The notes beneath the pieces were generated by a model, which had not been told where the DNA came from, did not search any database, and saw nothing but the letters and a program-made list of their open reading frames with translations. The translations under genes were made by a program, and so were the position numbers. A stretch of 64,000 nucleotides of DNA from Sclerotinia nivalis (Eukaryota; Ascomycota; Leotiomycetes; Helotiales; Sclerotiniaceae): contig JAPEIS010000001.1 of NCBI GenBank assembly GCA_029531795.1, forward strand, positions 5,828,001 to 5,892,000. Direction: 5' to 3'. Within the stretch, counting starts at the first letter, position 1, and every line of letters begins with the position of its first letter. Shown here in pieces: positions 1 through 52,518 of this stretch.

Positions 1-810
1 GAGGCTTGGATTATTTCTGTATGATTTCGTGAGATGATCGCGGAAAAGAGAATGAAATGCGGGTTATCGTGATTCGCTGCAAGTTGGACTGTCACGGCAG
101 TAAATAGGTGAAGCTGCAGTATAATGTCTTGGTATCGAATTAATGTTTGGTTGAACGAATGGATGCCCGTTAAATGGCGAAAAAGTCCTAAAAAGGAGGA
201 GAGTTGAAGTTTCACCAAACGATTGAGAAATTATTGAAATGAGTTGGTTGATGGAAGGAAAGATTCAATCTTTCAATTGTTTGAAAGGTAGAAGTGAAAA
301 AGTTAAGAGCGGGGGAGCAGCTTAGCAGCTTAGCAGCGGGAACGAATGAATGAAATGATAATGTTGGCTCCAACCAGTGACCCAGCCAAAGATTCTTGAA
401 TCTTTAATTTTTGGAAGGAAGAATGATTTGAGGTCGAAGAAATGACTTTGAAGAGGTTCACCAGATGGTCCACGAGGGTCAAGTAGGAAGGGGAATACAA
501 AAAGGAAGTTTAAAGCATCAACCCCTGCCTACCTTTTGGGGGGTGATATCACCTTTTTCTTATACTTTGCCTACATGTTAGAAATTATGAACATTCTACC
601 GTTCCTCGAGACGGTGGCGTCCGTGGGTCTTCACAGGTATACAACTACACTGCATTAGGTAGAAGTAGAAGAAGCTGAGATGAATAAGAAGTAACGATTG
701 GATTCTTGGCGTTGATGGATTTTTCCAAATTTCAGCATATAAAAGTGATTGAAGCGAGAAGAAGTGGAAAAGGTTAAGGCATGGTATGAAATTGATACCT
801 CTTTTGGTAT

Positions 811-9884: not shown

Positions 9885-12162
9885 TTACTTACTTGTTCGA
9901 TTCAGTACTTTAGTCATTCCTACCTGAAATTGTTCCTTGGAAGCTTCTTTCTTCTTGATTTCCTCCTCCAGTCTTTGGATCTCGGTCATATTGTCGGCAT
10001 GGCTCTTCTTCAAAGCATCTCCCATCATGATCAAATTTTCAATGGCGACAACAATTTTCTTTTCTGTGTCTGCGTTCTCTCTTCTGGATTGGAGTAAACT
10101 TGTTTGCAGATTGGAAATCTCTGAGTTGGCTTGTTCCAGCTTCTTTTGCAAGATTCCCTTTAAAACGATGTCGTCAGTCTCGATACCATCCATCGGAGTC
10201 GATTGAGATGAATGTGAATTATCCACCATTTGCTCATCTGGCGATGCAGAATTTTCAGCAGTGAGCGTAGGTGTAGCAAAAATGTTAAAATTGGTCGAAG
10301 TTGTTTGTGACGGCTGCGGAACATCCATTGTCTCGTCTGATACCATGGAATCATCTTCAATGAGCGAAGGTGTCTTTGATAAGCGAGATCCGGTCGCACC
10401 CGTGTCTGATGGGACGACAGCTGACTCCTCTCGTCTCATGGTTACTGCTGGACGACGAGTTCTATTGTTCGTATTGTCTTCTTTGCCGGTGTATTCTGCG
10501 AAATTCTGACTGTCTGCAAAGCTCCGACGCTGGGGAGTTTCAGGCCCAAACAACCCGAGGGCTTCTTCAGCTGCATCCAAAATAGGAGTCGATTCCCTGT
10601 CCGACGACTGTTCAATCGACCGCGTGGCTCGTTCTGCTGGTTGTTGGGAGATAGGCGAAGGGGGTGCAGGAAGCCCCATTTGCTGTGCAGCCTCGTGCAA
10701 AAGTGGGCTGTTGGGCGGGCTAGGGCTGGCTGGAGGCTCGGGGGGTTCAGGTGGTCGATTGTAAGGAGTGAATCTCTCACCAGCAGATGGTATGATTAAT
10801 TCAATTGGGTGATCATTTGCATTCTTCGCTGTATAGTCTTTCTCCTTGCACCTGCTTTTTCTGTAGGTTACCATATCAGTAAGCATCTGTGGCTTTGGAC
10901 ACTTTTTCGGCTTATATTCATCAGGATCTGAACGTCTTTTCTTGCCTTTATTCTGCTGGATTGGAGAATCCGCGCTCATCACTCCTTGCCCAGGGTTGTT
11001 CCTCCTTGCGGATAGTCTGATCCGATTGGCAGGGCTTTTTAGACTGGTAGGATTGGTCTGCTTTGTCGCCATATTTTTGATGAGTCTTGTGAAATATGGT
11101 CTTTCATCATAAGTGAACTCCTGTCGACCATCCTTCTCCCAATATTCACGTTGCTTATGTCGATCATGAGCATATCCAGCTTGATTCATAGCTTCTTCAA
11201 CTTCCTTCCAAAATGTTTCTACTGACATACCATACTGGTTGCTTTTCTTCTTTTTGATCACCTCACAGAGATGCTCCCTTTGCTCTTTTGGCAAAAGCAC
11301 AGAGGCCCTTGTGGCAGGTACTGCAACTTGTACCATAACTGCGTCTGGAGCTCTTCGGATGCGCTCAAACGCCATCACTTCCTCATCGACTTCTTCTGAC
11401 TCTGGAGGCCAATCACGAGCGATAGCACTTTGGTTCCTACCCCTGTAGGACCAATATATCCAACAGTCACGTGCTGAGTGAATGATACCGAGTCTCATCA
11501 TTACGGCTCCGCTAGCTTTTTCGAGGATAGCAATAGCATCGAGGTCATTATTTTGGAAATTCTCCTCGATGATTTGGGTAATGAGAGCACATTCTGTCTT
11601 CAGGAAGCGTTTCGTTTTTTTTAGACGAGGCTCATATATCAAGATGTCATCAGACTCTTTCTCGGGCGTTGAAGAGGATGCTTCATTTGCAGAAGTCGTT
11701 GAAGAGGATGCTTCATTTGCAGAAGTCGTTGAAGAGGATGCTTCATTTGCAGAAGTCGTTGAAGGTTCTGCTGCTTCCCCTGTAGGAGCGGCGACCAAAA
11801 TACTTGGCTCTGTCTCCCTTACAGCACTTGCAGTACTTGCAGCCCTCCTCAGCTCAGTATTTCTCGAAGTTTCCAGGCGTAGATTTTGCAACCGAGTAGC
11901 TGGAGTAGGAGCGGCAGAATTAATGCGTTGGAGACCTCGGGCTGGAGGAGGGATGCGGGTGACCGGATACCCTCCTCTATACGACCGGCTCGAATCCCTT
12001 CTATCTTCAGGATAGTAGACAGAACTGTTGTTTGTGTGATACCCGACGTGGTAATATCGACATGCTTCTGCAAAACATTAGTTAAGGTCTTCATCATAAA
12101 ATTCGGGAGAGAATCATACCTCCGTTATGGCAGGTGCCCCGTTGCCAATATCTGCATGTCAT
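9885..12162 (-). CDS. CCCH zinc-finger protein with Myb/SANT-like region, lineage-specific
   Basis: Two exons: 12162-12120 (43 nt) and 12067-9885. The 52-nt intron has a GTATGA donor, a TTAACTAAT branch point and a TTTTGCAG acceptor. The product is about 741 residues. Joining the exons makes an N-terminal C-x7-C-x5-C-x3-H finger starting at residue 3, with the intron inside it; neither exon alone shows it. CCCH fingers usually bind RNA. Around residues 270-345 the pattern EHLCEVIKKKK ... FWKEVEEAM ... YWEKDGRQEFTYDER resembles a Myb/SANT-like module frequent in Sclerotiniaceae proteins ending in W-x4-GRQxFxxDER. An exact 30-bp triplication (11671-11760) encodes Ser/Thr/Asn/Glu/Ala repeats. 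The C-terminal 80 residues form a coiled coil. Function is unknown; RNA or chromatin association is inferred. Confidence 0.75.
11671..11760 (-). repeat. coding minisatellite, 3 exact copies of 30 bp
   Basis: Three identical 30-bp units (gaagaggatgcttcatttgc plus agaagtcgtt) lie in frame in the CCCH gene, each giving a ten-residue Ser/Thr-rich unit. Perfect identity indicates recent expansion or gene-conversion homogenisation, and probable length polymorphism between strains. Confidence 0.9.
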
Positions 12163-14799: not shown

Positions 14800-14970
14800 T
14801 TGAAAGTTGCTAACTAGTAGGTTTTTTGATAAATAACTCGGGTCATAAAACTAGAAATCATAAAAGCAAAGGTAAAAACACTTGCTAACAACGATTTTCC
14901 ACAGTCATTAAACGAGCTCAGATCATAAAACTAGAAGTCATAAAAGTGAAAAACAATTAACTTGCTGGCT
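14800..14970. repeat. 80-bp imperfect direct repeat
   Basis: The word cataaaactagaaatcataa near 14844 recurs as cataaaactagaagtcataa near 14924, and cttgct at 14881 recurs at 14961, giving an 80-bp period over about two copies. It lies just past the 3' end of the GTPase fusion gene. Confidence 0.65.
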
Positions 14971-15121: not shown

Positions 15122-18100
15122 TTAGGAAGGAGGTAGTAAAGTGGTCAAAGTATTTTTAGGTGTCACAGTCGTAACTGCATACTTCCCAGTGATCCCTTCC
15201 CATTTGCCTTTGACAAAAACTTCATAGTTTGATGCTTGGGTAAGGCTATCAAGGACGGATCTTAGGTCCGGATTGCGCTGCATACAGAGTGACCACTGTT
15301 GATTATATAAACTAGTAATAAGATAGTGAAGAACACGGAGTTACTTACCTCCCAAGGATCCGCGTTACTTAGAGCATCATCCCGAATCTCATCGGTTCTT
15401 CTGAACTCAAAGGTACTTTGCGCCTTTGAGCAATCTTCAAGATCAAAAGGTCAGCATTTAGTTATAACAGATTTTTTTTGCAAATGATGATTTGTCTAAG
15501 TTGAGAAGTATGTAGATACTTAAACATAAGGATAGACAATACTTAAACATAAGGATAGACATGAATCCCGAGATTAGAGAGGATGTGATGAAAGAACTTG
15601 GTATACTCACAAACTCTGTCTGATTTTTTGAAGGCAGGCTTCCGAGCAGCTGTATTGGGATTTGAGGCGTAACTTCCTCCGTTACCTTGGTTGTAGATGA
15701 GAGTAAGCATACATAAATGGAGCGACTTATGGAATTCACCCACCCCATATTGTGTATCCATTTTGAAATCTCAATCTAGGAACAACCTTCACGCGAGCTG
15801 TATATGGCAACGAAGTTCTTTGATCGAAAACCATCTGATTAACACAATTCACACGGTTGGCTGGGAGTGAAATCTGTGTAGATGTCGAGGTGGTGTAACT
15901 AGATGCTTCTGAGTGAGACGAAATGTTTGAAAAATTCCCATTGGATGTTGCCTTCATGTTAGCTTCCCAGGTATCTTTTACTCCATATTTGTAGCCGACT
16001 ATTGCATAATGTTAGTAACTACTTACTATGAGACTTATAGGTGCTGTCATCTTGTTCAATTCTCATCCTCGACTAACGCAGCAAGAAAATTTAGAATATC
16101 GTGGAACAATCGCTGTTCTCACTACCGATATTTGGTGAAAATATCGCTACAAGTTCACTTGTAGGACCCATAGTCTTGAGAACAGTGCTTGTCATACCAC
16201 TTTCCAAATATCCAGCTGCATGAGCGGGATCTTGTGCTTCAGGAACTTAACATACCTTCAACTCCAGCATTCACACCCCAACTTTGACTATCTGTGATAG
16301 TACTTGTCACACTGCTAATTGAGCCTATTGTCACAGTTATACTAGGAAATGTTAGCTCGTTTTATCAAAGAAGCTTCGAGGTAAGACTTACGGAGTGGCT
16401 TGCGCGGGATATTCGGTCGTGTCAAGCTATATCATTCAAGTGAGCAGGCAGTCCAGGTGGTAAAGCAGACAGTTGTTTCTACCTTCAAAGGTTTAAGATC
16501 AGTTATAATTGGTTTACCCCATATAATATCCGAGACCTAAAAGCATCAGTACAAATTCAGCTCGCACTAATATGGGGATTGGATGATTTACCTCGACAAC
16601 CCAATCGAAGAACTCAAGATTTGTACTATGGTTTGCCTTTATCCAAATCAGTAAAGTTTGGATAATTTGGAAAACAGAACTTACATCATAAGCACCGCCA
16701 GGCGGATTGTTTAAGCGCATGGTTCGAGAGTTTTGCTGGTTTGGTTTCGTAGGGTCTGTGACAGACATACCCATATCTTGAGGTTTTATACCATCTAACC
16801 TTCCACCATACAGGTACGACATGCCTAAATCTCCACCCATTGCACAGCAATCAAAGTTGATATTATTGATAACCTAGGAGAATATTGTAAGCATTCATCT
16901 TAATCATAGTCAGGTTGCTAAAGGTAGAAGGGCGAGGAAAGTTTGATACATGTTCTTGAATAGCTTTTGTGGCAGCTAGATTACCCTCCAGACCTTCCAC
17001 TCTGTATGAATTGTTGCGCTGTACTACTTCAACGAGAGCAGGATAGGTTTTTGCCTTCCACTCGTCCCATTTCTATTGTATTATTAGCTTTCTATGTATC
17101 CACTAAGAAAAGGAGTAAATATAATACGGCTTGAGCCAATGCTTGTTCGCCTTTCTTCTTAGCTATAAAGAACATCAATTGCCTTGTTATGCTGGTATCT
17201 AAAGCCGCCGTGCTGGTGAAATTGTTTGCAAGAGTCTGGCATAGTTAGTCTTTTGGAAGGAATGGTATAATTCTGATCAACTCACTTGATCAACTATAGG
17301 TATAACCATTTCGGTAAGAAGTGCCTTGTTGTACACAGACACGACCTCATCATACTTGTCAACTTTCGCCTTTCTATCAAGCTCGAGTCCCATGTCAAGT
17401 TGTAACTGGTAAGTCTGTATCGTTGTGCTTGAAATTGTTCCATTTTGCAGGGCATTGAGTTTGCCTTTGGCCATGGTGAATTTGTTTCTAGCATCTGTAA
17501 CAGCCGCATTGGATGTCACAGTCTGTTACATTTTATCAGTCAAGCTTAAGAGATTTGGGGGTGGTAATCATACAATCTGGTCTCTTGTGGTGGTTGGTGA
17601 ATCCAAGTTGAGATCAATGAGATCTAGTTGATTCCGACAAGCTTGAAGAATAAGAGGCACTTGGGCAGCCAGCTCGCTGCTAATATAGCTCTTGTAAGTA
17701 TCACATGCTATAATGATCAGCAGTTAGTAGTTACTCTCATTGATCTTTGCAGGCCAGTTTAACGTACCTAGGTTGTAAGTTGTGACAAAATTCGACTTTT
17801 TCTCAGAAACGAAAACATCGAAATCCGATCCAATCTTGGTAGTCATTGTTGTTGAAAGACTATTTTGTGAGCAAAATAGAAGCAATGCATCCTAGAAAAC
17901 ATTTTTAGTACAATTAAGTGAGGATCAGAGAAATATGTACTAACTTTGATCGGGGTAGGGTTAGTGATTGTGGTAAATGATTGAGGCTCGTTCTGTGGCA
18001 CGATAGAATTCTGAAGTTGCATGACATATGTTTGCTTGAGACTCTCGAAAATGACATTGAGACTGGCCTTGACATCTTCTTCGTTTTTTAACCAAAGTGC

Positions 18101-20244
18101 CTTTTGGGTATTCATTGCGTTATCTGCCGAAGTTGTGAAAAAGTCTTTTTTGTCTTGCTTATCAGACCATAGATATTCATTATCGAGTTTTTGACCGAAG
18201 CTTGATTTTTCTGTGCTACAAGCAGAGGTAGCACTAGCAGTGTATTGACTTTCATTACCAACTTGTATATTTCTTCCAAGTATTACCAAGGTATCTGTCA
18301 GAGTTTTTATGCTGGCCTGAATCAAATCTGTAGCCCAGACACCCCAAGAACTAGCAGCCTTCGATTGAATGCCAGATTTGTGCAGATCGAGAGCTGACTG
18401 TATAGTAGCTTCGTAGTCATTGGGCAAAGCCTGAGGATCGTACGTGTCACCTCTGTTCTTCAAGGTGCTTGAAAGACTGTTGAACAAAATGACAAAAGCG
18501 TTATCAATGTCTGTTGGTGATTGTAGGATGTTGTTTGTTGGGAAGACCTTTGATAACTCGGTTCCAATTGAGCCAATTAAATTGGTCAAGGAAGTGGACA
18601 TCAAAGTCTTGATCCTACTCAGATTTATTGCAATGAGATTGACTTTGACGGCAGTAGCGGAGTTCGAGGCATCATCCTGAGCCCTCTTCACAGTGTCGAG
18701 TGGCATGTATGAGATGGAATTAGCAAGTTGACTGAGAAGTAGCGTCACATTGCTATCAAATCTAGTGGAAAGTAATTGAGTTGATAAGACAGGATCGCTG
18801 AGTATGCTGTCTGAGACAATACTCAAGGCATTTGTGAAAGTAATCTGTACTTTGTTCAAAGCATTGTTCTGAGACAATTCAAAGATTGATGGCAAGTTCA
18901 ATGGCTGTGAACGATTGATAGCATCTGCAAATGAGGGCATAAAGTCAGCAATTGTGCCCCCTGTTAGTGGTACTCCAGTAGTAAACTCTCGAGGGGAGAC
19001 TAAGGCTTTAGAGAGCCCATCCCGAAGTAGTTTGAAGTATTCCAGATACTTTGGGGTGAAGTCTGTGAGTAAGATAAAATCTTTGATGCCATCAGCAAGA
19101 TTATCACGAGCCTCGCTTTTGAGGCTATCAGGCAGGATGAAGACTTGGATAGATTCGAAGACGGATGTTAGAAGTTTTCGGATGTTGTTCCTGTTGGTCG
19201 AGTTTGAATCGGTTTCTGGCTCCTGGTTCATGAGAGCATTTTTGAGCGTGGTAACCGTATCAACCTTATTCGTTCGAAACTGATTAAATATGATGAAAAG
19301 ATGCCCAAACAGTGGGCTTGTCGAAGCTGTCCTAGGTTTTCTAGGTGTTCCATGATTTGCCGAGTCATCGGATCTAGCGTTTCCACCTGCACGAAGCCTT
19401 TGTGCTGCTTGGGTCATCATACCAAGCTGTGAAAGGATCTCTTCGGTGAGCAGACCTCCGGTTCGGTTGTAGATGATGACTCGAGACGTGACCAATGCGG
19501 GGCTAAAAAGATCCATGCTAGGAGAAGTCAGGCAAGAAAAAGAGAACTTCATGTGAGAATCTTCATATATCAGTCCCCGAAAGCTTCATACGTGGTACAT
19601 GTAATCGTACACTTTCATGGTAGAATGTAGCCAGATCCTTGATACGGTCCTCTGAACGACTTCAATTTAAGGAATATGATCTACTCATAATTGTCTCCTA
19701 CGGCGCCTTGCCCTTCCGTATCGACGAAAGTCACCTTGACATTCTCGGTAGTTGAATCAACAGTTGTTTCCCCTTCTAGTGAGGAAAACTGAGGAAGTGT
19801 CTTGGATAACATTTAGCCGCGTGACTTTGAGTTTCGTGATCAATCTTACCAATACTCTGGTTGGAATTTGAATTCCTTTAGTAAAAGTCTCCATGCCTGG
19901 ATACGTTGCAAATAGCTCTGTAGCACTGCAGCCAGCAAGAATGTTCATCAGAGTAGACTTTCCGGAACGCGCAGGGCCCATCACGCTAATCAGGTTCAAA
20001 GGGTCTTTGATCAGTCGTATAAAGTTGTTGGTAGGATCTTCGATGACCTTCAAGGCGTATGCTTGATGAGCCGACCTGCCATCGATTGGATTAGAAGAAG
20101 AGTCTGAGAGACTCATATCGAGCCATCGCATGGAATGAGAGGCTTCATCGCCCAGTGCTGCGATGCCTTCGGCTGTGAGTCCAGCTACTGGGAAAGTTGA
20201 TTAGCATTGTATAATTGCGGGTCGAGAGACGAAGGCATACCCAT
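15122..20244 (-). CDS. GBP-type GTPase fused to a putative aerolysin/ETX-MTX2-like C-terminal domain
   Basis: Twenty exons: 20244-20241, 20187-19850, 19788-19685, 19517-17945, 17891-17768, 17707-17574, 17522-17286, 17235-17128, 17072-16950, 16873-16685, 16636-16592, 16536-16483, 16426-16392, 16341-16256, 16215-16126, 16050-16027, 15998-15744, 15685-15611, 15434-15349, 15295-15122. All phases agree and the total is 3858 nt (1285 residues). Exon 2 has the GBP P-loop GPARSGKST (residue ~71) and GMETFTKGI; exon 3 has the G3 motif DTEGQG (~137); exon 4 opens with DLFSPALVTSRVIIYNRTGG, diagnostic of GBP/atlastin-class dynamin-like GTPases. Residues ~200-915 are mostly helical. From ~978 the protein turns beta-rich; exon 17 carries a Ser/Thr/Asn-alternating stretch, then ISLPANRV and LPYTARVKV, the pattern around the membrane-inserting hairpin of aerolysin/ETX-MTX2 beta-pore formers. 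The GTPase call is firm; the pore-former call is by pattern only. No signal peptide is evident, so it is probably cytosolic. A self-recognition or defence role is inference. The donor of exon 15 could lie a few bases further on. Confidence 0.75.
15518..15561 (-). repeat. 23-bp tandem duplication inside an intron
   Basis: acttaaacataaggatagac occurs twice in direct tandem within intron 18 of the GTPase fusion gene, which lengthens that intron well beyond its neighbours. Confidence 0.85.
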
Positions 20245-51453: not shown

Positions 51454-52161
51454 TCAGTTTTTGATAGCCTTTCCCTTGTGTGTCAAAATGACTTCCTTTT
51501 CATTCCGATCACCGCCAGTATACTGCATCTCAACTTCTAAGCCCCCCAAGCCTTCATCAGCTGCTTTTCGGTTCCACAACATCTGCATAATCTTTCCATC
51601 CGCCCCGCACAGTACATAACCCATCGGCCATTGACTCCTGCCTAGAGCTTCTCTCACACCTTTGGTAGCTGCTTGCTGCGAGACTAAAAATGCCAATACA
51701 CTTGATGCTCTCCATCCTTGCGGAGCACCTACAAAAGTTCCTTCTAGTTCTCGAGCTTGAGCTGGCTTTATTTTGGCTGCAAATGCTTTGCATTGTATGA
51801 GGACTTTCAAAGGTTGAGGAGCGGTGGGTAATGACCATGTTCCAAGTAGATCAATTCCACAATCTGATTTTCCACCAACCTGCTTGAGAGACATGCCTAA
51901 CCGCTCTAGTGCTTGTTTGGCCATATACTCATAATGAGTTCCTACATATGTAGTACTGCCTGTGTCCATATTGTTGCGTGATGCATATTCCAGAAAACTG
52001 GGCAGATCATGATGCTCTGCATTCTGTGAGTCAGGATATGTCAACTCATCCGCTTCGGTAGTAGTTTCAGGTGCAGTTGCAGTCGCACCGTTTGCAAAAC
52101 ATCGGCGCAATGATTGCTTTCCTAGTTGCAAGAGACGCCGCTGAGGACGTGCTGAAAACAT
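51454..52161 (-). CDS. RRG7: mitochondrial protein Rrg7 (required for respiratory growth 7)
   Basis: A single exon of 235 residues. The N-terminus MFSARPQRRLLQLGKQSLRR is a typical mitochondrial presequence. The core has the Rrg7/DUF2034 signature GTHYEYMAKQALERLGMSL, GGKSDCGIDLLGTWSLP, LKVLIQCKAF and KPAQARELEGTF. This is a restriction-endonuclease-like fold; the GID...QCK residues match the metal-binding D/QxK pattern of Mrr-type nucleases. In yeast, loss of RRG7 impairs respiratory growth and mitochondrial DNA maintenance; the reaction is not established. It is divergent from MED21 across 357 bp. Confidence 0.88.
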   Translation of the reverse strand: MFSARPQRRLLQLGKQSLRRCFANGATATAPETTTEADELTYPDSQNAEHHDLPSFLEYASRNNMDTGSTTYVGTHYEYMAKQALERLGMSLKQVGGKSDCGIDLLGTWSLPTAPQPLKVLIQCKAFAAKIKPAQARELEGTFVGAPQGWRASSVLAFLVSQQAATKGVREALGRSQWPMGYVLCGADGKIMQMLWNRKAADEGLGGLEVEMQYTGGDRNEKEVILTHKGKAIKN

Positions 52162-52518
52162 GGAGATTGGTTGTGTTTGTCAGTATCATGTGACTAGCAT
52201 GATTTTTCACGGGTAGTTCGTCCGATGTGATGCAAAACGGGAGCAGAGACGGACTACCTGCATGCACTTAACCAGCAAGAAGAAAAGCGGTAGCGATAAA
52301 TATGTATCGTGAGAAAGTTCTCTACAATTTTTTTGATAGTGATGCACGGGAGTCGGAGATTATGCAAGGCTACGCCAATTAACTTCGGCAAGCTAAGCCC
52401 TTTATGGTCAACTCCCCGCAAAGGATTATCTGCAAGGCTGACATTTTCGCAACCTACCTGAGAACATCTCTTTGAAATCCATCAGCATTGAATCCCGTTT
52501 ATCTCCCACCAACGAGTT
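52162..52518. promoter_or_regulatory. divergent promoter, RRG7 / MED21
   Basis: 357 bp between the outward-reading start codons. No motif I would name. Confidence 0.4.

Follow-up and report, generated by a model that had tools for sequence, protein, structure and literature searches.

The 64,000-nucleotide stretch of DNA analysed here (the window; positions 5,828,001 to 5,892,000 of JAPEIS010000001.1) lies on contig 1 of the genome of the ascomycete Sclerotinia nivalis, which comprises 50.3 Mb in 31 contigs. Its minus strand carries a gene predicted to encode a GTPase head of the guanylate-binding protein (GBP) type and an aerolysin-like C-terminus in a single protein. The gene and its parts, in positions of the window, are the following:

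15122..20244, minus strand: whole gene, 19 exons, 1272 amino acids, hand-curated splicing
19055..20023, minus strand: GBP-type GTPase head, residues 57-303, exons 2-4, PF02263
16950..19054, minus strand: middle region, residues 304-915, no family match, perhaps helical
15406..16705, minus strand: aerolysin-like domain, residues 972-1202, exons 10-18, PF01117
15744..15998, minus strand: exon 16, with a Ser/Thr/Asn-rich stretch, ISLPANRV (residues 1125-1132) and LPYTARVKV (residues 1146-1154)
15122..15405, minus strand: C-terminal tail, residues 1203-1272, no family match
Exons 1-7, minus strand: 20244-20241, 20187-19850, 19788-19685, 19517-17945, 17891-17768, 17707-17574, 17522-17286
Exons 8-14, minus strand: 17235-17128, 17072-16950, 16873-16685, 16636-16592, 16536-16483, 16426-16392, 16341-16256
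Exons 15-19, minus strand: 16215-16123, 15998-15744, 15685-15611, 15434-15349, 15277-15122

The best-supported statement about this locus is that one fungal protein combines a predicted GBP-type GTPase head with a predicted aerolysin-like tail, each domain, and their linkage within a single frame, being supported by independent family models and by exon-chain controls. The automatic splice models skipped or misplaced small exons in the GTPase and in the C-terminus, and the exons were subsequently curated by hand with the expected families already in mind. In the curated model, the reading frame is uninterrupted across all exons, and the first stop is the end of the gene. All 18 introns are of the GT-AG type (40 to 176 bases), and 14 of them contain any of seven branch-site-like pentamers within their last 60 bases, a count for which the chance level was not computed. 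The weakest point of the model is exon 1, which comprises only 4 bases; the next in-frame methionine (residue 21) is still N-terminal to the first domain. An earlier note on this DNA had proposed one continuous minus-strand frame of 20 exons and about 1285 residues; reading of the DNA and the curated exons confirm the single frame, its coordinates and its motifs, whereas the counts had to be revised to 19 exons and 1272 residues.

When codon bias is learned from eight long frames elsewhere in the window, the chosen frame outscores its two sense-strand alternatives in 17 of the 18 scorable exons (exon 1 is too short for scoring, and exon 6 fails). Counting against the gene call, an antisense frame scores equally or higher in exons 2, 5, 6, 11, and 16 (5 of 18), one frame has a positive score in 6 of the 18 introns, and the gene's own bias, which runs from -0.001 to 0.042 bits per codon depending on the domain, lies at the bottom of the range of the training frames or beneath it (0.033 to 0.195 when these frames are scored on themselves). 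Over the region of exons 5-19, the best exon chain on the real strand reaches a score of 44.0 with 1560 coding bases. The antisense strand yields -2.7, and a chain is possible in 49 of 60 dinucleotide shuffles (mean -11.1, standard deviation 7.4, maximum 6.9). Because the curated chain comprises 1797 coding bases in the same region, this control supports the existence of a gene-like chain but not each curated splice site, and individual splice sites are uncertain.

A gene model of this kind might have merged two adjacent genes, one GBP-like and the other aerolysin-like. Three introns (167, 124, and 176 bases) are indeed longer than the other 15 (40 to 76 bases). However, the frame is open through all exons, the exon-chain score lies far above those of the shuffles, and neighbouring exons are never more than 176 bases apart, which makes two separate genes unlikely. 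A merger, which the earlier note had named as an outcome against its reading, is thus not suggested by the sequence and is the least likely of the explanations considered, with a very low probability. In the longest intron (intron 17), gtctatccttatgtttaagtat is duplicated head to tail at a period of 23 bases (15516-15560, minus strand). At 14841-14946 (minus strand), a short distance downstream of the gene, the 26-base sequence cttttatgayttctagttttatgayc occurs twice, 80 bases apart.

The Pfam family GBP (PF02263) matches residues 57-303 with an E-value of 4e-16 (59.4 bits; cut-off 21.1), and the best match among PDB sequences pairs residues 56-203 with guanylate-binding protein 2 (6vkj; E 8.8e-6), with chains of GBP1 and GBP5 also among the matches. 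The head contains a P-loop (GPARSGKST, residues 72-80), a switch threonine (T104, in ETFTKG), DTEGQG (137-142), and DLFSPALVTSRV (151-162); the P-loop, the switch threonine, DTEG and the segment that follows can be aligned to chains in the PDB that are named GBP1 and GBP2. The head assigned in the earlier note is borne out. A search of residues 1-330 against NCBIfam gave only 23 weak matches, by name to ABC-type and other P-loop proteins, all far below the cut-offs.

GBPs and atlastins carry RD as their guanine (G4) motif. In the fusion protein, the strand-like segment LFIIF is followed by NQ (residues 227-228), whereas in the Sey1 protein of this genome LLFFVI is followed by RD; if this placement by eye is right, the nucleotide preference may differ. 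The head might even be degenerate, with no role beyond that of a scaffold that oligomerises or inhibits a pore domain acting independently of nucleotides. The NQ directly after LFIIF would agree with such a scaffold, but the P-loop lysine and serine, the switch threonine and DTEG are all in place, and the G4 motif was located by eye and not by a profile alignment (the PDB alignments stop before it), which leaves a nucleotide-independent effector improbable.

The region between the two domains had been described as a long helical middle. In the AlphaFold model of exon 4 alone, strands and helices are followed by mainly helices past the GTPase part, although all 524 residues have a predicted local distance difference test score (pLDDT) below 50; the Chou-Fasman propensities of the middle (helix 0.016 and strand 0.025 above 1) do not favour helix, so that the description receives slight backing from the former and none from the latter. 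Pfam detects no family over the middle, neither in the whole protein nor in residues 322-916 alone, and the helical C-domain of GBPs (GBP_C) gives no match in either up to an E-value of 1. PADLOC gave no match for residues 1-916. Since no 19-residue window exceeds a Kyte-Doolittle score of 1.18 (strongest at 818-819), a membrane-spanning helix is not expected. A signal peptide looks unlikely, because the first 25 residues contain no hydrophobic run, as judged by eye without a dedicated predictor.

The C-terminus is matched by the Pfam family Aerolysin (PF01117), both in the whole protein (residues 972-1202; E 9e-6, 25.6 bits) and in the last 357 residues alone (916-1272; E 2.6e-7, 30.7 bits), in each case above the cut-off of 24.3 bits; the match covers positions 62-262 of the 365 positions of the profile. 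Because the curation was done with the families in mind, the C-terminal parts of two uncurated splice models, one of them taken from a set of three, were scored as a control, together with one reversed and two shuffled copies. Aerolysin is the sole match of the uncurated models but remains below the cut-off (20.7 and 17.8 bits; E 2.8e-4 and 0.002); the reversed and shuffled copies give no aerolysin match, and one shuffle has a chance match to SUR7 (E 0.15). Of the two comparisons made in the earlier note, with aerolysin and with ETX/MTX2, the Pfam match is to the former; the Pfam family ETX_MTX2 is not matched up to an E-value of 1 by either the whole protein or its C-terminal parts. NCBIfam gave no match for the C-terminus.

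The exon at 15998-15744 (exon 16) does hold ISLPANRV and LPYTARVKV, as had been reported. By itself, it matches PF01117 with an E-value of 0.0071 (16.1 bits, below the cut-off), the better of two matches. AlphaFold predicts a single beta-hairpin for this exon (1133-1141 and 1146-1154; local pLDDT about 73) at a mean pLDDT of 49, with 52 of 84 residues below 50. In aerolysins, a Ser/Thr-rich stretch forms the barrel. The strand-type hydrophobic moment exceeds the helix-type moment in all six windows across residues 1091-1132, but the reverse is true at 1127-1144, and the comparison has no control.

The same domain might instead be a non-lytic module that binds membranes or glycans and anchors the GTPase for trafficking or remodelling, without any pore. 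The aerolysin fold often recurs in proteins that are not lytic, GTPases of the dynamin superfamily typically remodel membranes, and the domain is divergent: in the whole protein it scores 25.6 bits, with the cut-off at 24.3. Set against this is the presence of a Ser/Thr-rich stretch of the barrel type, with the higher strand moment at 1091-1132, although the moments are reversed at 1127-1144. On balance, a non-lytic anchor appears unlikely, although it is a stronger contender than a degenerate head.

Given the two families, and given that in fungal cell death a sensor controls a pore-former, the most likely function of the protein would be that of a nucleotide-controlled intracellular pore-former acting in cell death or defence. 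The proposal that a GBP-type head of the dynamin superfamily controls a C-terminal, aerolysin-type pore-forming module within a single intracellular protein is tentative and falls somewhat short of probable. The more specific notion of a one-protein fungal immune executioner, in which the GTPase cycle directly assembles the protein's own aerolysin pore in the cell, is rather doubtful. At the sequence level, the mechanism is consistent with the presence of both domains in one frame, with the P-loop, switch threonine and DTEG, and with the lack of a membrane-spanning stretch. A non-self partner could act as the trigger, as could a membrane that is damaged or foreign; in response, the GTPase heads would assemble head to head in a nucleotide-dependent manner and thereby place several C-terminal modules side by side. 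The Ser/Thr-rich hairpins of these modules would then insert as a beta-barrel, and the insertion would either kill the hyphal compartment or permeabilise an internal target membrane. Where the earlier note had proposed a nucleotide-gated, pore-forming protein of defence or incompatibility, its domains and their fusion are substantiated by Pfam and the exon-chain controls, whereas we infer the nucleotide-driven assembly or gating, the intracellular site, the formation of a pore, the trigger, and the role in incompatibility or defence.

There are also arguments that speak against a GTPase-controlled intracellular pore. Secretion is usual for aerolysin-type proteins, and many members of the fold lack lytic activity. 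With NQ in place of RD, the head may bind GTP differently or not at all, and without a detectable GBP_C domain, the known route of GBP assembly may not apply. Moreover, the Aerolysin cut-off of 24.3 bits is passed only with the curated splice sites (the uncurated models reach 17.8 and 20.7 bits), and a phmmer search of residues 916-1272 against PDB sequences retrieved no aerolysin but only two matches at chance level (best E 0.33).

A search of the S. nivalis genome with the protein, in which only the best candidates were scored, gave 15 exon-wise matches, all inside the gene itself, and no second copy of the fusion gene among these candidates. The Pfam GBP profile found one other site in the genome, on contig 11 (C11:652960-655379), which represents Sey1 (Sey1_3HB, E 9.8e-128; RHD3_GTPase, E 6e-67). 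The Aerolysin profile gave no match in the six reading frames of the genome, even at the fusion gene, which it misses because the exons are scored apart; the result therefore says nothing about other aerolysin genes. No relatives came up in prokaryotic contigs, for which the full protein and residues 974-1192 served as separate queries, or in viral contigs, for which the full protein was the query, although such single-protein scans reach only close relatives.

Elsewhere in the window, genes belong to families such as Fungal_trans and RRG7; tRNA genes and Rfam matches are absent from the window. A frame of the RRG7 family (51457-52179) also matches the restriction-endonuclease family Mrr_cat (26 bits; cut-off 21). 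An open frame of 730 amino acids (9888-12077) has no Pfam match above the cut-off and contains three tandem copies of TTSANEASSS.

Both domains are known, but their combination is new as far as seen: literature searches, which covered open-licence papers, brought up none whose title or opening lines of the abstract describe a fusion between a GBP-type GTPase and an aerolysin-like domain. Likewise, three papers on fungal cell death (covering NLR, HeLo, and gasdermin proteins, among others) make no mention of GTPase, guanylate, dynamin, or aerolysin. Animal GBPs act upstream of a separate pore-former. If the proposed function is true, the fusion would unite in a single chain what animal-type cell-autonomous immunity divides between two proteins (GBP and gasdermin), and would do so with an unrelated pore fold. 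The cell-death systems of fungi would gain a class controlled by a GTPase, and the protein would offer a simple setting for asking how a dynamin-type GTPase can trigger a pore.

Among known systems, Sey1 of the same genome resembles the fusion protein in matching the Pfam family GBP, but it possesses RHD3_GTPase and Sey1_3HB domains, has retained RD, and shows no aerolysin match at an E-value of 0.01. Animal GBPs share the GTPase head with its P-loop, switch threonine, DTEG, and the aligned segment that follows. By contrast, the fusion protein has NQ for RD (by eye), a long middle in which GBP_C was not found, and an aerolysin-like C-terminal domain. The fusion protein ends with LTTLLPPS and thus lacks a CaaX-type end. 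Like members of the aerolysin family (PF01117), it matches the profile (positions 62-262 of 365); unlike them, it is joined to a GTPase and has no signal-like stretch by eye.

A fungal parallel is Pa_5_2020 of Podospora, a protein of 447 amino acids with aerolysin-like, jacalin, and LysM domains; a "Yes" entered for it in the final table column is taken to mean that it is secreted (PMC3689799). An aerolysin-like gene with jacalin/LysM architecture is induced about 18-fold during incompatibility in Podospora (PMC3689799). Pa_5_2020 is likewise an ascomycete protein with an aerolysin-like domain, which its induction ties to incompatibility, but the partners of this domain are jacalin and LysM, and the passages on it name no GTPase (PMC3689799). 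The pairing of a sensor with a pore-forming protein is common in fungal cell death (PMC12881547, PMC10197012). Although the fusion protein has no Pfam match to NACHT, NB-ARC, HeLo, or gasdermin up to an E-value of 1, the NLR/HeLo and gasdermin systems of fungi offer a possible analogy, in that a switch protein governs a membrane-permeabilising effector.

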